Part shown: positions 7,473-49,500 of the stretch, piece after piece
Position numbering within the stretch: position 1 is the first letter of the stretch
Layout of the letters: every line of letters starts with the position of its first letter
IMG/VR virus record: IMGVR_UViG_3300048438_000153
Span: 186,001-250,000 of that record
From: a virus
Length of the DNA stretch: 64,000 bases
Strand: one strand, 5' to 3'
Notes under the pieces: generated by a model
Seen by the model: only the letters and a program-made list of their open reading frames with translations
Database searches by the model: none
Told to the model about the DNA's origin: nothing
Translations under genes and position numbers: made by a program

Positions 7473-10400
7473 TCACCTCTTCTTCCCTACAATTCTATTT
7501 CTTAAGCTGTGTCGATCACTTCGACTAGGAGAGGGAGATCTGCGCCTCGCATCCGAACCGCCTCTTAATCGAGGTGATCCCGCGAAGCCTTTACCCCCAT
7601 GTAAAACAGTACCCCCTATTGATGATCTACCCGAACCGCCCGCAAAGTATTTCTGCTTACCCACTTGCTTAGAAGCGAGCCAAACCATACGAGTGAGCGC
7701 GTCCGACATATCATCGTGCTTGCCCTGAACTTGAGGCGCTTCTACTGTGACGATGTGCTTACTCTGAACCTTCGCTTGAAGCTCCAAGAGCTCCTGAATG
7801 TAAGGCTCATGTCCGTTCTCTTCAGGGTGAAGGTCATCATACAGCCTGAGCCTCTCATCCCACATCATATCCTTAAAATTCTGAAAGATTTGAGAGGTGA
7901 GTTGCTTTGTCATTTGAACGGACTTCATTTGACCTAAACCGCGCTTGGCGAGGGCTTGCTCAAGAGGTATGCCCGCCCATTGGTCAAAGATTCCCTCGAC
8001 TATGTAGAACTTCTTAGTGAGAGAAAGAATCCAATCAGCGACATCATCAAAGTCTAGCCTTTCTTTCTCAGCGTAGTCTCCTTCTCCCGCCTTTATCTGA
8101 ACTACAAGATCAACAACAATATCGTCCTCTTCTAAGTGACCAATAGCCACCGCCGTTCCGTCACCTACGAGCGCGAGGTCAATGCCCATGAAATGAGGCT
8201 GTCGAGCTGGCGCTTTCTGACGCGCTCTAAGCTTAGGGTCAACGCAAGCAAAAAGGTCTTCAGACTTCTCGATCCAACCTCTCGTTCTGTCTGTAAACTC
8301 ACCACCATACTCCGTAAAGAAAACAGCGGCGTTCTTAAGATAGTGTTTCTCGAACTCTTCAGCGGGGACAGTGGGATTGACCTCCCATGTAGGCGCTTGA
8401 ACTGCGAGGATGTTCTCACTCGCTCGACCACCTCTCATACCAATCTGAAAGAGGCTGTAGAAAAGACCCTGTTTACCTAGCGGAGAAGAGATCAGAATAA
8501 TTCGACCCTCAACCTCACCTATAGGCACAGTGGGGTTGTTGGGGTCTTTAGCTGAGTATGCTGAGGTCGAAGGCACAACCGCGTTATAGACCTCTTCCGC
8601 GCCCGACTGACCCGACTCTGTGAAGTGAGCCACCTCATCAAGAATAACGCAGATATTACCCGCACCACGCAAGCCCTTCGCCACGCACGATCTGAATGTG
8701 ACCTTGAGTGTAGCTTTCGCGTTAGAGTTCTCTATGTAACGACCGTATTTATCTACGTCATTGGGCGTCTGAAAGCGAGCGTAAGAAAGAGTGTTGTTCG
8801 CGGTGTATGGACCGAAGAAAGAGCAGTTTCTATAGTGTCCTGACACCTCTTGGTAGAGAAGACCCGCTTGGTCTTTGTCAGTCGCCACAGAGATAATCTG
8901 AATGTTGTTACTTGCGGGCAACCCGTAGTATTTCTGAGGGTCGCCTTTCTTGATCAACTTATACGTCTCATAAGCAGCGATACACGCAGAAATCGTGGTG
9001 TTGTGGTTTGTGAAGGCGTTCCCCACAAACATCGAGCCGTCAGGTACGTTGAGGTCATAAACAGGACTCCTCGACCTCTCAACAGAAACGATCTCGTCAA
9101 AGTAATACCCTGAGTCTAGGATCAAGTTAATCTTAGACTTGAGGTGATCAGAAACCTTATCCGAAGAGGCCACTCTGTGAAGGAGTGTCAGCGTGGGGGA
9201 CGTTGAAGACACCAATTTGCTAGATAAGCCCTTTCCCCTTAAGAAAGACCCGAACCCTTTTGGCGAGCAACTTTGGTCTTTAAGACCGTAGCCCAATCGT
9301 CTACTGAGCTTGTTAGCTCGCTCTTTCTTTTTTCTAGAAATGAACCCAATGTCGTCAAGAAACCTACGATAAGATTGAGTTCCCTTGAGAGACACCACAC
9401 CCTCCTCAAACCCCGAATACCTCCTACCAAATCGACGAGATGTGAAAACTCCCATGTTCATCAAGAGAATCTGAGCTTCTTTGAGTATGAGAGGAGAGGC
9501 TGAAGACAAGGAAATCTCACGCCCGCCCTTATCGGCAATATGACCATCTGTCTCGAAAAGACCCCGAAAGAAAGCGCATTGGACAGAGTAAGGGCTCTCT
9601 AGGATCGCGAAAGGGATTGTCTTAGTCTTGTAAACTACATCAACTCCCCAACCCAATCGCTGAAGAAAAGTCCTGATCTCTTTGCTGTATGTGTTCACTC
9701 TGTAAACACTACCCTCTCCCTCGATAACAGACACTTTTCCAAATAGAGAAACCATCTTTGAGACGAGGTAGTTCTTAAAGTCCTCACAACCTGTGGTGAC
9801 GCCCACCTTCTTCCCACTAGTCCAACCGCCGTCACCCACTAAAATACCGAGCATCTCCCCCCAATCCTCATCAAGATAGTCAGGGAGCTTGCTCTTCACA
9901 GAGAGGTCTTCCTTGTACTCTGAAAGAGGCACGTAATGCTCAGGGAAAAGACCTCTACTCTTGTTAAGACAAGCGAGATCACCCACCTGTATGTCTTCAA
10001 GGTACTTCCAAGATATGTTGTATTCCTTGTCGAGAACTTTAATCCTGTGGTTGGGCGTACCCTCTAACTCAAACCCCGAGTAGGTCATGATCTTCTTAGT
10101 CTCTTTGACGCCTCCGTTATAGAAGAAAGCCGTTTGCGCTGTAGCCCCTCCCTCTTGAAGAACTTGAACAGAGAGAGGCTGATATTCGGGCGCACCATGA
10201 GAAGCGTCTCCTAGTGAGTCGAGCCTCTTCATCCCACCAGGCGTGGGGATCAGAGTATCACCTGTGACACACTTACCTGAGCGCCTTCCGATTGAAAGTA
10301 TCATCTCTCGGCGCTGTTTTCCGGGGATAACCTCTCCGACGTTACAACGACCCTCGTCGTAGAGTTTCTTAAGGTACGTCTTTTCTGTGTGTACCTCAAT

Positions 10401-10607
10401 GTTCTCTCTACGCCAATCAGAAATCTCAAAGGTATTTACATCATCGAGTTCAAGCCCATAGTGTACTTTCAGAATGACCCTCTGCACAGGAAAGAGCTTC
10501 ATCTTCAAGCCCCAAGGAGACTCAACAAACTCGATGATGTCTACGTTCTTCGTAGACTGTTTCCCCGCTCTCGCTGAGGCAGATATTGCTAATGATGAAA
10601 AAGACAT
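7473..10607 (-). CDS. terL: Terminase large subunit interrupted by an intein
   Basis: 1,044 residues, of which 424 (residues 113-536) are an intein, leaving a 620-residue spliced TerL. The N-terminal ATPase has the P-loop GRRSGK|TT, split by the intein, and Walker B VILDEVAHF. The C-terminal RNase H-like nuclease has the acidic motif MGIDLALVGDGTAVAIG and a late DDMSDAL Asp pair. The last 60 residues are basic and Gly/Ser/Arg rich. The motor cuts concatemeric DNA and pumps it through the portal. Upstream (3-base gap) lies the likely small subunit. The ATG has AAGGTGAG about 8-12 bases upstream. ATPase activity requires intein splicing because the P-loop is otherwise broken. Confidence 0.93.
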   Translation of the reverse strand: MSFSSLAISASARAGKQSTKNVDIIEFVESPWGLKMKLFPVQRVILKVHYGLELDDVNTFEISDWRRENIEVHTEKTYLKKLYDEGRCNVGEVIPGKQRREMILSIGRRSGKCVTGDTLIPTPGGMKRLDSLGDASHGAPEYQPLSVQVLQEGGATAQTAFFYNGGVKETKKIMTYSGFELEGTPNHRIKVLDKEYNISWKYLEDIQVGDLACLNKSRGLFPEHYVPLSEYKEDLSVKSKLPDYLDEDWGEMLGILVGDGGWTSGKKVGVTTGCEDFKNYLVSKMVSLFGKVSVIEGEGSVYRVNTYSKEIRTFLQRLGWGVDVVYKTKTIPFAILESPYSVQCAFFRGLFETDGHIADKGGREISLSSASPLILKEAQILLMNMGVFTSRRFGRRYSGFEEGVVSLKGTQSYRRFLDDIGFISRKKKERANKLSRRLGYGLKDQSCSPKGFGSFLRGKGLSSKLVSSTSPTLTLLHRVASSDKVSDHLKSKINLILDSGYYFDEIVSVERSRSPVYDLNVPDGSMFVGNAFTNHNTTISACIAAYETYKLIKKGDPQKYYGLPASNNIQIISVATDKDQAGLLYQEVSGHYRNCSFFGPYTANNTLSYARFQTPNDVDKYGRYIENSNAKATLKVTFRSCVAKGLRGAGNICVILDEVAHFTESGQSGAEEVYNAVVPSTSAYSAKDPNNPTVPIGEVEGRIILISSPLGKQGLFYSLFQIGMRGGRASENILAVQAPTWEVNPTVPAEEFEKHYLKNAAVFFTEYGGEFTDRTRGWIEKSEDLFACVDPKLRARQKAPARQPHFMGIDLALVGDGTAVAIGHLEEDDIVVDLVVQIKAGEGDYAEKERLDFDDVADWILSLTKKFYIVEGIFDQWAGIPLEQALAKRGLGQMKSVQMTKQLTSQIFQNFKDMMWDERLRLYDDLHPEENGHEPYIQELLELQAKVQSKHIVTVEAPQVQGKHDDMSDALTRMVWLASKQVGKQKYFAGGSGRSSIGGTVLHGGKGFAGSPRLRGGSDARRRSPSPSRSDRHSLRNRIVGKKR
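9000..10271 (-). mobile_element. Intein with LAGLIDADG homing endonuclease in the TerL P-loop
   Basis: Splice junctions read GRRSGK|CVTGDTLI at the N side and AFTNHN|TTIS at the C side, giving Cys1, a terminal His-Asn and Thr+1. Block B is EGTPNHRIKV. Two dodecapeptide motifs of the DOD endonuclease are visible, LGILVGDGGW (about 253-262 of the precursor) and FFRGLFETDGHIA (about 346-358). All splice residues look intact, so it is probably active. Codon use looks like the surrounding gene. Confidence 0.95.
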
Positions 10608-18646: not shown

Positions 18647-19384
18647 CTATTCAAGACTAGGGATCTTGCCATGCTTAACGTAGTTGGCGTGAGCTATAGG
18701 CCATAGAGATTGAATCTGACGACTAATCTCCCTCGCTAAGAGTTTGATTTCCCACTGAGCATCCGCATGATCTCTCTTGGCTATGAAAGAATTCATCCAA
18801 TTATGGAGAGAGCCTGTTGCCCAATAAGTCGTATAGATATTCTGAGGGAGGATCATGCGCGCCTGTTCTCTAGCCACTCCCTGACCTATCATCTTATTGT
18901 AGAGCTTCACAGAGTCTGCGGTATGGTTTTTGATAGCAGACACAGCGTCTAGCCTTAAGAACTTAGGGTAGTCAAAAGCTTCAAACTCTATCGTTGGATT
19001 GAAAGTCTCGTCTAGGCTCGCCTGACGATTCTTAGTGTCCTGCTCCCTAAGCGCAGATGGGAAGTAAAACTCAATGTCTGCGGAGGTGTATCTCCGTGAG
19101 ATCTCATTGTAAGAGAAAGTCCTATGGCGCATCTGTTGGCGAGCGACAAAGAGCGGAACTTTAATCCAAAAAGTTACCACATTGTGCTCGCTTGTAGATG
19201 TATGACCCTCCCGAATGAGAAAGTTGGAGAGACGCTCCTCCTTTTCTCCCATTTCCGTACTGACCTGACCCAAACTAGCTCGCGCTGAGTTAACGAGGGT
19301 TAAATCATCACCCATACTCTGAATAAGAGCAACCCCACCGATACCGTCGTCGTAGATATCTACTTTATTCTCTCTGAAGTCCAT
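18647..19384 (-). CDS. thyX: Flavin-dependent thymidylate synthase ThyX
   Basis: 245 residues from the ATG at 19384 (AAGG 7 bases upstream); a GTG two codons earlier is too close to that site. ThyX makes dTMP from dUMP with FAD, NADPH and methylene-tetrahydrofolate. The signature RHRTFSYNEISRRYTS is complete, matching the RHRxxSxNxxSxRY consensus, preceded by TSEHNVVTFWIKVPLFVARQQ. Length fits the family. With NrdA/NrdB and dCMP deaminase elsewhere in the window it gives the phage an independent dTTP route. Confidence 0.95.
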   Translation of the reverse strand: MDFRENKVDIYDDGIGGVALIQSMGDDLTLVNSARASLGQVSTEMGEKEERLSNFLIREGHTSTSEHNVVTFWIKVPLFVARQQMRHRTFSYNEISRRYTSADIEFYFPSALREQDTKNRQASLDETFNPTIEFEAFDYPKFLRLDAVSAIKNHTADSVKLYNKMIGQGVAREQARMILPQNIYTTYWATGSLHNWMNSFIAKRDHADAQWEIKLLAREISRQIQSLWPIAHANYVKHGKIPSLE

Positions 19385-19438
19385 TCTCACACCTTCTAGG
19401 TTATAGATCTGAGATGTTCTACCAAAGAGACATAAGAA

Positions 19439-20293
19439 TTAGCGACTAAACCTGTTGTATCGCCTTTGCTTTCTAACCCTTGCGCGTTGCCTACTCTGCT
19501 GAGTACGAGGCTTCCTAAGAGTTCTCCTCATCTTCTTGGTGCGGTTTTTAAGACCACTTCCCTTAAGAGCTTTTCTTAAGCCCTTACCAATAGCTCGGCG
19601 CACAGACGACTTGAGAGGACCTCTCCTCTTTCCTGACATGATCTCGTCAGCCAAGACCATAAGATCCTCTGCGAGTAGCTCTGCTTCTTTATCTGAAGCA
19701 GTGCGGTCAGTGCTCAAATCTGAAAAAAAAAAGTCCTCTGAAGCAACGCGATCAAGACCGATATCATCAATGATCTCATCATCGTAGAAAGAAGCCCTAC
19801 GATTTTTCATCGCTTGATAAAAATAATGATTATGACTCTTAGGTTGCTTCTCCTCAAGATCCATCAATTCCATCTCCTCTTCGCGAGTGAGCATGCCCTT
19901 TGATTTCTGACGGTTAAGATGCATAAGCCTGTGGGCAATGTTACCCTTAATTCTCGGGTCGCGCCTCTCAGCGGGAGTTTGGTATCCGAATCCAGCAACG
20001 CGATCAAGACCGATATCATCAATGATCTCATCATCGTAGAAAGAAGCTTTCTTACCAAGCTGACCAAGAGCTGAGATGTCTTCTTTGTCGTTACCCATGT
20101 TTTTCTTAATACGGTCTTGACTCATCTCGCCCGTTGAAGGATCGAAAGCACCCTCGTACTTATCCCAATCTTCTGCGGCTTCAGGGTTTTTCTTCTTAAA
20201 GTTCTTCTTCCACTCTTCGTAAGCTTTAGTGTCACCTTTAGGGATGCGAGCTTCTTTCTGAAACTCACTAGCGATGCGATCAAAAATATCCAT
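19439..20293 (-). CDS. Virion-like protein with duplicated segment and very basic C-terminus
   Basis: 284 residues with GGAGAG before the ATG. It contains two copies of an identical 18-residue segment reading SFYDDEIIDDIGLDRVA, and many (R/K)xAS motifs (RIAS, RVAS, RTAS). The last 60 residues are extremely basic (KGLRKALKGSGLKNRTKKMRR...). A 10-base A run (plus strand, around 19723-19732) encodes FFF. The basic tail suggests DNA or RNA binding; the acidic repeat may be a removable propeptide or a docking site. Family not recognised. Confidence 0.55.
   Translation of the reverse strand: MDIFDRIASEFQKEARIPKGDTKAYEEWKKNFKKKNPEAAEDWDKYEGAFDPSTGEMSQDRIKKNMGNDKEDISALGQLGKKASFYDDEIIDDIGLDRVAGFGYQTPAERRDPRIKGNIAHRLMHLNRQKSKGMLTREEEMELMDLEEKQPKSHNHYFYQAMKNRRASFYDDEIIDDIGLDRVASEDFFFSDLSTDRTASDKEAELLAEDLMVLADEIMSGKRRGPLKSSVRRAIGKGLRKALKGSGLKNRTKKMRRTLRKPRTQQSRQRARVRKQRRYNRFSR
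19742..20047. repeat. Identical 54-bp direct repeat inside one gene
   Basis: The 54-bp sequence at 19742-19795 recurs exactly at 19994-20047, 252 bp apart (a multiple of 3, so the frame is kept). Both copies encode the same SFYDDEIIDDIGLDRVA segment. Lack of any silent change points to a recent duplication or gene conversion. Confidence 0.9.
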
Positions 20294-20352: not shown

Positions 20353-20865
20353 TTAAGCCTCATCTTCATCCTCGAAGTCGATTTCTATTTTTTCGGGCTT
20401 ATCTGTCTTCTTAATGGGGTCTATCCAATCCTGAACTACGCCTTTTAACTGCACCTGATCTTCCGTCTTTGTCTTAATGACGGACTGCCCACTAAAGACA
20501 GAGAGCTTCTCAATCACGGCTGACTGAAGCTCGAATATCTGCTCTCTGAGGAGTTGCATCTGTATCTGAGCATCTCTTAACCGAGCGATCAGCGCAGCTC
20601 TGTCTCCGTTTGCTGAGGCGAGCTTATCTTTCAGCTCTTCGACCTCACTAGGATCGCGCCCCGAAGCTATCGCGAGCATACTAGAAATAGAGCCTGTCAG
20701 CATCCCGATGATGCCGATAAGAATATCTCTATTCTTCTCCACTATTTCGTGGGTAGATAGAAAGTAGATAAGAACGCAGATCAGGAACATGAAGACTACG
20801 CTCGCCCACCACCCTCTCTTCGCTTTCTCACTCTGAGTGAACTGTTTATGTGAACCTTCTGACAT
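20353..20865 (-). CDS. Two-TM membrane protein with coiled coil (holin-like or cyclase partner)
   Basis: 170 residues. Two hydrophobic helices lie at about 19-36 (WWASVVFMFLICVLIYFL) and 48-69, followed by a charged coiled coil (about 72-118) and an acidic end (DFEDEDEA). A hairpin membrane topology would leave both termini in the cytoplasm. It starts 4 bases after the nucleotidyl cyclase, so the two are translated together. Possible roles are a holin-like protein or a membrane partner of the cyclase. No cyclic-nucleotide-binding domain is visible. Confidence 0.65.
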   Translation of the reverse strand: MSEGSHKQFTQSEKAKRGWWASVVFMFLICVLIYFLSTHEIVEKNRDILIGIIGMLTGSISSMLAIASGRDPSEVEELKDKLASANGDRAALIARLRDAQIQMQLLREQIFELQSAVIEKLSVFSGQSVIKTKTEDQVQLKGVVQDWIDPIKKTDKPEKIEIDFEDEDEA

Positions 20866-20869
20866 GATT

Positions 20870-21724
20870 CTACCCCTTAATTATCTTGATCAGATCTTGC
20901 CACACATAGACAAGGAAAGCATAAGTCTCGTCTACAACAGGCATATAGAGGGGGAGCCCTAGAAACATATTTCTAGCCATAGGGCGCACTATAATCTGAA
21001 AGAGTATGTAAATCCAAAATACTGAAGCGATGAATGCTACTCTCCAAAAGACCCAAGCCACCCATTCTTTCAGCTTTCTGTCCCTAGCCCTCGACCTGAT
21101 GTACTTCGGACCTCCGAGCCTCTTTACTTTCTCGGAACTCTTAGGAGGCTGAAGAGACTCAATAGACTCCCCCACTGCAAATATTTTCTGAGGCTTCTTC
21201 ACGCCCTTAAATCGGTAAAGACCGACACAGACGTACCTAGTACCTTTAGGAGTGTGTATATTTACTCTCCCTCTCGTCTTTCCCATAGCCTCTTCAGTCA
21301 AAAGCACTTGGCCTTCCGCGCACACACTCATCGTCCTCGCGGCGATATTCTTAGCTAGACCCTCTAGCTCAATCCTCTTAGCACCCGCCCCTACAAAGAC
21401 ATCATCCTGTTGAACCTCGATGACGCGCCCCCAATGGATTCCGATCCTCGTCTGTAGACGAGTCTTAGGAGGCACTTTCTTTTGGTAATGAAGGGCGAAG
21501 TTGACCGCATCTATAATGGTGTCGAAAGAAAGGAGAAACCCGTCAGACCTGTCAATCTCGCGACCGTTGAACTTGTAGCACAAGCTCCTCGCGAGTCGGT
21601 CATGGAACTGAAACCACTGAGCCGCTTTCTGTGCGCCGTATTTCTGAACAAACGCAGTTGAACCAATGATGTCCAAGAGGACTATGGCTAAGTACCTCTC
21701 TTTCATCGTCAATTCGTAGTTCAA
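20870..21724 (-). CDS. Membrane-anchored class III nucleotidyl (adenylate/guanylate-type) cyclase
   Basis: 284 residues. Residues about 10-185 form a class III cyclase catalytic domain. Metal ligands are D18 in VLLDIIGST and D61 in SDGFLLSF; the transition-state pair N126 and R130 lies in KNIAAR; GIHWGR matches the conserved GIHxG strand. The usual Lys four residues before the second Asp is Ile here, so the base specificity is not canonical. The C-terminal part has one clear membrane helix (about 221-246) and a second hydrophobic stretch. The start is TTG at 21724, with GGGGAG 7 bases upstream, overlapping the lipoprotein stop. Product could be cAMP, cGMP, cCMP or cUMP. Class III cyclases are rare in phages. 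Confidence 0.88.
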   Translation of the reverse strand: MNYELTMKERYLAIVLLDIIGSTAFVQKYGAQKAAQWFQFHDRLARSLCYKFNGREIDRSDGFLLSFDTIIDAVNFALHYQKKVPPKTRLQTRIGIHWGRVIEVQQDDVFVGAGAKRIELEGLAKNIAARTMSVCAEGQVLLTEEAMGKTRGRVNIHTPKGTRYVCVGLYRFKGVKKPQKIFAVGESIESLQPPKSSEKVKRLGGPKYIRSRARDRKLKEWVAWVFWRVAFIASVFWIYILFQIIVRPMARNMFLGLPLYMPVVDETYAFLVYVWQDLIKIIKG

Positions 21725-21957
21725 GGGATCTCTCCCCTGATGTATCTAAGTACAGCGTCGCACTCTGAGTTTAAGATAAGCTCAGCCGATTCTCTACTAC
21801 AAGAGCCCAAAGGAACTCGCGCGCCGAGACAGAAAGTTATCTTGTCTACGACTTGCTCACAAAGCGGTTTAACTTCTTTCGGAGTTAAGTCTGCCTCTTC
21901 CGCACACGCAGAAAGAGTGATCACAGAGGCGACTGCGGTCAGTATCATCTTTTTCAT
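21721..21957 (-). CDS. Small Cys-rich lipoprotein
   Basis: 78 residues from the ATG at 21957, chosen because AGGAGG lies 6 bases upstream. MKKMILTAVASVITLSAC is a lipoprotein signal peptide with lipobox LSAC, so the mature chain of about 60 residues would be lipidated at Cys18 and sit in a cell membrane, probably the outer one. Four further Cys residues suggest disulphides. Its stop overlaps the TTG start of the cyclase, linking the two. It might be an envelope sensor, a superinfection protein or an outer spanin-like protein; none of these is shown by sequence. Confidence 0.8.
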   Translation of the reverse strand: MKKMILTAVASVITLSACAEEADLTPKEVKPLCEQVVDKITFCLGARVPLGSCSRESAELILNSECDAVLRYIRGEIP

Positions 21958-22077: not shown

Positions 22078-22620
22078 TTAGACCTTAAGAGGATCGCCAT
22101 TAGGGTCAAAAAGACGCTCAATCTCAAACTCTCCGCCCTCACCTACTTTCACAGACCAAAGGTCTTTTGTAGACTTGTGTACGAGCTCGCCTGTAGCATT
22201 CGCATTTGAAGCGCCAAAGGCGGTTAAGAGAGACGGACCTGAGAGGATGATGAAGTCATCTAGACTAGCCACCCTCATCGAAGCTACTCTGAGAAAGTTG
22301 ACGCTCACACGGTCAATCTTATCCCCCCTACCATCCCACTGAACGAACACCTCTCCGTCCATAGACGTGACCTCACCCGAAGCAGTGCGAACCTTAACAA
22401 CAGATCCCTTTCTACCCGCCATAGGAAGCCTATTTGGGATTAAGAGTCCATTGTTGGTAGTAGAGACTACTCTAACGCCCTCAGTGAACTTAGCGAGCCT
22501 CTTAGACGTGACTGTTCGGTTAACGTCAACTAAGTCTGAGACTTTGGTGTTAATCACCTCGTCCATGCTTGCGGTCTTTTGAGCACTCGCAAACATATCA
22601 TTGAGCCATGAATCACTCAT
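22078..22620 (-). CDS. Unknown protein with SH3/KOW-like segment
   Basis: 180 residues with AGAGGGG before the ATG. The N-terminus has KTAS, and the middle has a beta segment (RKGSVVKVRTASG then EVFVQWDGRGDKI) resembling an SH3-like barrel, followed by FLRVASMRVASLDDF. The RVAS motifs link it to the virion-like proteins. It is the first gene of the unit that ends with the lipoprotein and cyclase cassette. Family not recognised. Confidence 0.55.
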   Translation of the reverse strand: MSDSWLNDMFASAQKTASMDEVINTKVSDLVDVNRTVTSKRLAKFTEGVRVVSTTNNGLLIPNRLPMAGRKGSVVKVRTASGEVTSMDGEVFVQWDGRGDKIDRVSVNFLRVASMRVASLDDFIILSGPSLLTAFGASNANATGELVHKSTKDLWSVKVGEGGEFEIERLFDPNGDPLKV

Positions 22621-46532: not shown

Positions 46533-49500
46533 CTAAACCACTAAGACCCCGTAGTCGTCAGCGCAGTAGAGTACCGTGTCAGCCACCGAGCCGAAATCAA
46601 TGTTAAAGTCACCCTCCCCGAAAGCGTCGGCTACCGAGCCGTAGTCGATGACTTCCATGACTCGACCATAGATTACGAGGTCGCCTCCAACGAGAGCGTT
46701 CGGGTTCAGAGAAATACTCTGAGACGTAATCACAGGACTCTCGTTAACGTCTGTACCTATAGTTGGAACAGTACCCGGCTCAAATCTACTGTTGTTGGCG
46801 TTGTAGACAAGACCCTGACCATCGGCCAAATCAGTCAAGTCAACATCGGAGTGCGTTTCAACTGAGCCCAAGACGGTAAGATTTGAGCCATCTAACGCCC
46901 CTAACTTACCTTCTCCATCTGTAACAACCGCCTTGCCGTTCTCACCACCTCCGCCATTAATAGTAGTGTCGAGTGTAGAAGCAGAGCCGAGTCCTAAGTT
47001 GCCTCTCGCTACCGCTTCATTTCCCCCATCAGAAATCTCAGAAAGACTGTTGCCGACCTGAAGCAAGTCTGAAATGTCTGTAGTCGCTGTTGAAGTAAGA
47101 CCGAGAGTAGACCTAGCTGTCGCGGAATCCGCGTCATCCAAAAGTGTTCTCGCAAAGGCTGTTACATCAGCCTCAGCCCAAGTATCTACTCCTGTAGTAT
47201 ATATGAGCTTATCAGCGCCCGTCCCGAGATCAGAAATAGCACTCAAGGTGGCGTCAAAAGCTTGGACGTCAGTGTCGATCTCTAACCCAAGAGTAGTTCG
47301 AGCCGTCGCTGAGTCAGCGTCATCTAAGAGTGTCCTAGAGAAAGCAGAAAGGGTGGCTTCAGCCCAAGTATCTACTCCCGTAGTATATATGAGCTTGTTA
47401 GCGCCTGTCCCGAGATCAGAAATACTCTGAAGAGTAGCATCGTAGGCTTGGACGTCAGTGTCGATCTCTAACCCAAGAGTAGTTCGAGCCGTCGCTGAGT
47501 TAGCGTCATCTAAGAGAGATCTAGCGAACGCCGTAAAGATGGTGATTGAGAAAGTATCTACGCCACTTGCATAAATGAGTCTATCAGCGCCCGTATTAAC
47601 ACCAGCTAAAGCTTGTAATGTAGCATCATAAGCCTGAACATCAGAGCCGATCTCAACACCTAAGTTACCCCTCGCATTCGCGACGTTATCTAAGTCATTA
47701 AGATTATTAGCTGACTGAAGAAGATTGCCAATGTCTGTTGTGGCTGTCGAAGTGAGGCCGAGGGTAGTTCTCGCTGTGTTAGCATCAGCATCGTCTAAGA
47801 GTGTTCTAGAGAAAGCAGAAAGGGTGGCCTCAGCCCAAGTGTCTACTCCCGTAGTGTAAGCGAGCTTATCAGCCCCCGTTCCGAGCGCGGAGAGAGAAGC
47901 TAACGTCGCATCGTAGGCTTGAATATCAGTGTCGATCTCTAACCCAAGAGTAGTTCGAGCGGTCGCTGAGTTAGCATCGTCTAAGAGTGTCCTAGAGAAA
48001 GCAGAAAGGGTGGCTTCAGCCCAAGTGTCTACTCCCGTAGTATATATGAGCTTATCAGCTCCCGTCCCGAGATCAGAAATAGCACTCAAGGTGGCGTCAA
48101 AAGCTTGAACGTCAGACCCGATAGCGACACCGAGATTAGCCCTCGCATTCGCGACGTTATCTAAGTCATTAAGATTGTTAGCTGACAGAAGAAGATCAGC
48201 GAGGTCTGTTGTCGCAGTAGGGGTAAGACCGAGGGTCGCTCTAGCATCTGCTGAGTTAGCGTCATCTAAGATTGTTCTAGCGAAAGCAGAAAGAGTTGCT
48301 TCAGCCCAAGTATCCAATCCCGTAGTATATATGAGCTTATCAGCTCCCGTTCCGAGATCAGAAATAGCACTCAAGGTGCTGTCGAGAGGCTGATAAGTGT
48401 TTGCGAGATCCAAGTCTGTGATCTCTGCTTGAACATAAGCAGTAGTGGCGACGAGAGTTGAATCATCACCGAGATCAGGGCTTTCCACTCTTAATGGAGA
48501 AAGAGTCAGGTTGGCGTCATTAAACTCTGTGGCGGTGTGGGCATCAGTGGTCGTGCCTAGCTTGAACGTGTCTGTGCTCTCGTCAAAAAAGAACACCGCG
48601 TCATTTCCCGTAGTCCCACGCTCGAAGAAAAGACCGATGTCATTGGGGTTAGCTCCGCCATCAACGCCTTTATTAAGTCTGACAATCGTATCTTCTACAT
48701 CTAGTGTAGAAGTGTTGACTGTTGTCGTGTCGCCCTGAACTTGAAGATCACCACTTACGATAACCTTCGACCCAACACCTCCGAGCGTTAAGACTGAAGG
48801 GTTGCCATTATTGGTAGTCATCGTCGCGCCGATTGTTGCATCTGCGTTGGTGAAGTCGATTCCTGTCATGCCACTAAGAGTTGTGGAAGCCCCTCCCAAA
48901 GAAATGGATGTTGAACCTACAGTCAAAGAGCTGTTCGCGAGCTTATCGTTCGTGACGTCTCCATCAACAATCTTAGCAGTCGTAACAGAGTCGGCATCGA
49001 GCTTCGCCTCAGTGACGTTCCCATCTACGATTTTAGCCGTAGTAACGGAGTCAGCGTCGAGCTTCGCTTCAGTGATGTTGCCGTTCAAAATCTTAGCGGT
49101 GGTTACAGCATCGTTACTTATGGTAGCCAAGCCCTCGTTGGAGATAGAAACATCACCCGAGAGAGATACGTTCTTCCATTGATTGTCGTCCGCACCCCCA
49201 TCGGAGTCGTAGACGATAATCTGAGCGTCTGCGACGTCGGCGAGGAGGACATCGTTGAGGTCATCGAGGCTAGAGACGTTGCCTGCTGCTTGCATGACGT
49301 CATTGACCCACTCAGTAGTCGCTACTGTAGTGTCATCAGAGGCGAGGTCAGGAGTTGCTGAAGTAAGAGTACCCACCTCAAAGTTATATGCGAAAGCCCC
49401 GAAAGTAGTAGCTCTTGTGGTGAGCGCGATGCTTGCGTTGTCTGAGAGGTTAGACGTAGAAATCGTCTGATTCGCAAAACCACCATTTCCTGTACTCACT

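Follow-up and report, generated by a model that had tools for sequence, protein, structure and literature searches.

A class III nucleotidyl cyclase and a two-transmembrane coiled-coil protein form an obligate gene pair in phages

Introduction

Cyclic-nucleotide signalling in the conflict between phages and bacteria is mainly known from the bacterial side, as a weapon erased by phages. Membrane class III cyclases usually carry an N-terminal coiled-coil transducer. Several described systems resemble in part the phage locus reported here, in which a class III cyclase gene is followed by a gene for a two-transmembrane (2TM) protein. The closest named family for the cyclase domain is TIGR04510, "putative peptide modification system cyclase" (residues 13-202, E = 7.7e-44). 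Among its bacterial relatives, the cyclase-STAND/TPR proteins of Lysobacteraceae, Rubrivivax and Rhizobacter show 34-39% identity to the phage cyclase. The TIGR04510-type proteins share with it a short hairpin and invariant D58, K116, K125 and R130, but they are fusion proteins of about 840-1,350 aa with TPR or NTPase regions at the C-terminus, have Pro or Ala where the phage cyclases have the catalytic Asn, and lack a 2TM partner (the 2TM profile matched nothing in 84,980 genomes). The nearest solved structures, both by sequence and by fold, are the mycobacterial class III cyclases Rv1900c and Ma1120, for which no comparable 2TM partner is known.

Pycsar (PycC with PycTM or PycTIR) likewise combines a class III-type cyclase and a membrane protein in a two-gene unit, whereas the phage cyclase is itself membrane-anchored and is encoded by the phage rather than the host. 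SLATT proteins, other 2TM effectors and OptE of the Panoptes system also consist of two TM segments and a cytoplasmic part, and are coupled to an enzyme of nucleotide signalling (PMC7159879, PMC12657218). The phage 2TM protein has no significant homology to them; OptE contains a beta-barrel nucleotide-binding domain, whereas the phage protein has a coiled coil only.

No phage-encoded class III cyclase module was found in the open-access literature. In the present case the conserved and apparently active cyclase, with a constant membrane partner, is encoded by the phages themselves, in genomes from 36 kb to 375 kb, and the pair looks like an undescribed phage signalling device. This raises the testable question of which signal these phages make in infected cells and how the 2TM protein uses it; the 2TM family may represent a new type of nucleotide receptor or of membrane effector.

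Gene Layout in the Window

The window, i.e., the whole stretch of 64,000 nucleotides analysed, is taken from a virus record of 275,102 bases (IMGVR_UViG_3300048438_000153), of which it covers positions 186001-250000. Its phage hallmark genes encode a portal, a head protease and an intein-containing terminase; the intein of the terminase large subunit (7473-10607, minus strand) has a LAGLIDADG domain. An earlier sequence-only reading had placed three translationally coupled genes at 20353-21957, and both the coordinates and the coupling were borne out:

21957-21721, minus strand: lipoprotein ORF, 78 aa
21724-20870, minus strand: cyclase ORF, 284 aa, TTG start
21551..21553, minus strand: cyclase codon for D58, the invariant Asp that occupies the base-specifying Lys position
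20865-20353, minus strand: 2TM protein ORF, 170 aa

The end of the lipoprotein ORF overlaps the cyclase start by 4 bp, the cyclase and 2TM genes are separated by a 4-bp gap, and a plausible ribosome-binding site is present at all three starts (AGGAGG, GGGGAGA and AAGGGG). The surrounding genes are concerned with nucleotide metabolism and replication, not lysis. The proteins flanking the genes at 19439-20293 and 22078-22620 (minus strand) begin with similar short motifs (MDIFDRIASEFQKEA and MSDSWLNDMFASAQKTAS), possibly a common virion-protein signal for targeting or for a protease, and the former has a repeated FYDDEIIDDIGLDRVAS-type segment inside.

Pairing of the Cyclase and 2TM Genes

Relatives were sought in IMG/VR contigs, many of them fragmentary, and loci were counted after duplicate removal. 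A scan with the single cyclase gave 5 viral relatives, a 2TM scan 225, and a cyclase profile scan 320. Both genes were present in 125 distinct viral loci. Five loci had the cyclase only, every one on a cut contig, and a cyclase was present at every 2TM locus having room upstream. The two genes are adjacent in the order cyclase>2TM in 115 of the 125 loci, spaced 0.7-3.9 kb apart in 7, reversed in one (L101) and on opposite strands in two (G011 and G012, 1.0-1.4 kb apart); in several loci small beta-type ORFs are inserted between them. Because the linkage survives insertion, reversal and strand inversion, it speaks for joint function more than for inherited gene order. A portal-protein search independent of the module gave the same picture: both genes occurred in 8 of 20 records, neither in 12, and one alone in none (the absences in the 12 are partly uninformative, as the records include short and distant ones). 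Starting from the terminase large subunit (TerL) of the small phages, a cyclase was found within about 2.5 kb in 53 of 56 loci and both genes in 49 of 56. All 12 small-phage loci in which the four genes occur together show the order TerL-cyclase-2TM-portal. The real unit is therefore an obligate two-gene module of cyclase and 2TM protein. Related phages, which might have lacked the genes altogether, keep the pair and for the most part its order, and the module is far more widespread than a reading of a single window could reveal.

The three-gene cassette described from the sequence alone holds for this window, where the gene for the Cys-rich lipoprotein (LSAC lipobox; mature part with four Cys in addition to that of the lipobox) is coupled to the cyclase. 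It does not hold as an obligate trio. In window-type phages the lipoprotein gene immediately precedes the cyclase, but in AT-rich phages it is kilobases away from the module on the opposite strand, and an HMM built on 15 homologues found none in five ~36-kb phage records. The lipoprotein is a lineage-specific companion, not a core or obligate part.

Distribution Among Phage Backbones

The module occurs in genomes ranging from circular 36-37-kb phages up to 375-kb jumbo phages. At least three backbones carry it, namely window-type jumbo phages, AT-rich phages (GC 0.27-0.36) and small phages, the labels being assigned by us from neighbour genes in common. Three small phages have end repeats of 123-127 bp, consistent with circular 36-37-kb genomes, and the small-phage TerL had no match among annotated phages. 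The record behind locus L183 (G001, 375,691 bases) has cyclase pieces at both contig ends that overlap by ~136 residues, which makes this jumbo record terminally redundant and, probably, complete.

In the cyclase tree, 64 of the 65 phage cyclases fall into one strongly supported set, separate from the bacterial ones; the L036 cyclase has a long branch. The tree forces at least three label changes for the AT-rich backbone (L117, for example, lies within the small-phage set), and the module has therefore probably moved between phages. Fibre-like segments are common to the 36-kb phages (L296+L297, 29751-33743) and the AT-rich phages L059 and L060, with 81-87% identity at the C-terminus, which suggests that small and AT-rich phages have overlapping hosts. 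The same segment is found in the window at 48138-48398 with a weaker identity of 47%.

A module that behaves as a mobile accessory between backbones with probable hosts in common, and that joins a cyclase to a membrane protein much as Pycsar does, could serve superinfection exclusion by sensing a second phage and disabling or lysing the cell early. We regard such an anti-competitor function as unlikely, since no trigger was identified, PADLOC gave no match, and the near-universal presence in the small-phage clade (53/56) speaks for a more core function than that of an optional moron.

Matches in a viral structure library were limited to distant cyclases, encoded by giant viruses and by some uncultured phages. 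The sole annotated-phage match of the cyclase, MT838110 (MT838110.1, L213; 26% identity), was set aside as probably a mislabelled bacterial contig. It encodes a bacterial-type 892-aa cyclase-NTPase fusion on a GC-rich contig, with oxidoreductase- and TetR-like ORFs beside it and no 2TM partner.

Catalytic Domain and Membrane Anchor of the Cyclase

The cyclase matched PF00211 at 25.7 bits (gathering cut-off 21.9). Its AF2 model, with a mean pLDDT of 92, gave a confident class III domain at ~6-204 and, after it, a C-terminal hydrophobic helix at 218-246; the best PDB fold matches by Foldseek were Ma1120 and Rv1900c (E about 1e-13). D18, D61 and R130 are invariant in 65/65 phage homologues and in 10 bacterial relatives. 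Of these 65 phage proteins, 62 keep N126 and three have Ala instead, and the bacterial relatives (n = 10) have Pro or Ala at this position. The domain score, the fold, the two metal-binding Asp and the transition-state Asn/Arg thus all agree with class III membership. On these points the sequence-only reading was accurate: the four catalytic residues and the C-terminal helix are present as it had claimed, the structure prediction that it had proposed gave the expected fold, and a loss of the catalytic Asp, which it had named as evidence to the contrary, was found in none of the relatives. Full-length membership in TIGR04510 (mod_pep_cyc) does not apply, the score being 150.4 bits vs. 400 (814 positions) and confined to positions 7-204.

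A dN/dS of 0.05-0.11 indicates purifying selection on the cyclase. Mean divergence was 0.41 in the catalytic domain and 0.78 in the C-terminus, and on this ground we read the C-terminus as free to vary, as for a plain anchor. Chance is excluded by the invariance of D18, D61 and R130, the low dN/dS and the retention of the gene pair in 125 loci. Judged from its sequence, the phage cyclase is apparently active and membrane-tethered.

The comparison with PycC, also proposed earlier, gave no significant similarity (best chain 8jsz, E = 0.13). PADLOC gave no match at E ≤ 1, and no cyclic-nucleotide receptor of the PF00027 type scored over the cut-off in 26 phage records. Membership in Pycsar was rejected, there being neither a PycC match nor a cyclic-nucleotide-binding effector. 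The suggestion that the module is a decoy against Pycsar-like defence would explain why a cyclase resides on a phage genome. It nevertheless appears highly improbable: in addition to the negative PADLOC and PycC results, no Apyc1-type fold (Lactamase_B_2) was encoded in 15 phage records, and a decoy leaves the obligate membrane partner unexplained.

Base-Specifying Site

The position of the base-specifying Lys had been read as Ile, which proved to be a register slip. In the HMMER alignment with Ma1120 and Rv1900c, D58 falls at the specificity Lys/Asn (Lys in Ma1120, Asn in Rv1900c). The beta-hairpin of the phage family is one residue shorter than theirs, with one residue fewer between the conserved G54 and the metal-binding D61, which places D58 rather than I57 at the Lys site. 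None of the 65 phage or 10 bacterial relatives departs from D58, and the partner base-specifying site is E/N119. This combination corresponds to neither the adenylyl (K/D) nor the guanylyl (E/C) pair, so that the product is indeed not readable from the sequence, as had been stated. The UTP-specific BcPycC also recognizes its base by an Asp, Asp94 (PMC11224242). If D94 is equivalent in position to the phage D58, as we infer, a pyrimidine or guanine cyclic nucleotide is conceivable as product by analogy.

The 2TM Protein and a Proposed Mechanism

The third gene had been described as coding for a two-TM coiled-coil protein, and this description stood. TM1 (~15-37) is followed by a short loop, TM2 (~47-67), a predicted cytoplasmic coiled coil (70-124) and a variable tail; all but one of 45 homologues have two hydrophobic segments. 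Within the module, conservation is highest in the coiled coil (mean divergence 0.14), followed by TM2 (0.18). With a dN/dS of 0.01-0.09 the protein is under purifying selection, and we read its cytoplasmic coil as tightly constrained. The structure model was poor (pLDDT 66). No match was found in annotated phages, in plasmids or by profile search in the 84,980 genomes, and searches of structure and family libraries gave no significant relative, nor any recognizable nucleotide-binding fold or cyclic-nucleotide-binding domain. A role as SLATT effector was considered: the window protein scored 13.9 bits against a Pfam cut-off of 26.5, and weak SLATT-type matches occurred in 40/45 homologues, as did AbrB matches in 30/45. 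SLATT membership was rejected because the weak matches were no better than those to clearly unrelated transporters.

With no PF00027 receptor scoring over the cut-off in the 26 phage records, the 2TM protein or a host protein is left as reader of the signal. We tentatively favour, at somewhat short of even confidence, an obligate module by which a nucleotide signal brings about a change at the cytoplasmic membrane, with the 2TM protein responding and with late expression. The cyclase would act as a homodimer anchored by the C-terminal helix and would make a 3',5'-cyclic nucleotide. The 2TM protein, as the responding partner, would sense the product or contact the cyclase domain, and might then oligomerise and change the membrane so as to affect permeability, readiness for lysis or the exclusion of further phages, presumably to the benefit of the phage. 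Counting against this reading are the lack of a recognized nucleotide-binding fold in the 2TM protein, its poor model, the non-lysis neighbourhood in the window and the Ala in place of Asn in three cyclases. The wider proposal, that this is an undescribed phage cyclic-nucleotide system, core to several unrelated lineages, with the 2TM protein as a new receptor or membrane effector, is possible but more doubtful.

Alternatively, a host receptor could be the target of the signal, and the 2TM protein would only regulate the cyclase. The pair would then be a split receptor cyclase, with the 2TM protein as regulator or scaffold and the product acting on host cyclic-nucleotide receptors to reprogram the cell. 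The phage cyclase has no N-terminal transducer (its first beta-strand begins at residue 6 in the model), the 2TM protein would supply the TM segments and coiled coil, and the PF00027 result fits a receptor on the host side. However, the 2TM coil (0.14) is far more conserved than the cyclase domain (0.41) that it would contact, and pairwise distances of the catalytic domain and the 2TM protein are only modestly correlated (r = 0.34). We consider this arrangement somewhat unlikely.

Gene Neighbourhoods and Timing

The favoured reading, with the 2TM protein as the responding partner, includes a probable expression of the module late in infection. From the gene neighbourhoods we lean towards late expression and action at the envelope: in small phages the module stands between TerL and portal, and in AT-rich phages it has a lysozyme, a DUF481 outer-membrane protein and a lipoprotein as neighbours. 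The latter genes, the ~90-aa hydrophobic protein encoded beside them, the two TM segments and the very conserved TM2 would also suit a function in lysis timing, in which the 2TM protein is holin- or antiholin-like and gated by the cyclase. Classical holins are unlike the 2TM protein with its long cytoplasmic coil, its matches to PHROG holins were not significant, and a complete small phage has endolysin-like and spanin-like ORFs elsewhere (by inspection). A lysis-timing role thus seems quite unlikely, slightly more so than exclusion.

Genes for DUF481-type outer-membrane proteins lie near the module in L027, L029, L038, L041 and L117, and their presence on phage genomes implies a Gram-negative host. 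The conserved ~90-aa hydrophobic protein (cluster 3, PLKSKKFIAYL...IGYILGQAALDKY) adjoins the module in L016, L018, L025, L027, L034, L059, L103 and L117; it was tried as a relative of the 2TM protein and dismissed (hhalign probability 1.9%). A gene for thymidylate synthase ThyX is located near the module in several unrelated backbones (L003, L013, L024, L048, L074, L137, L148 and the window, at 18647-19390).
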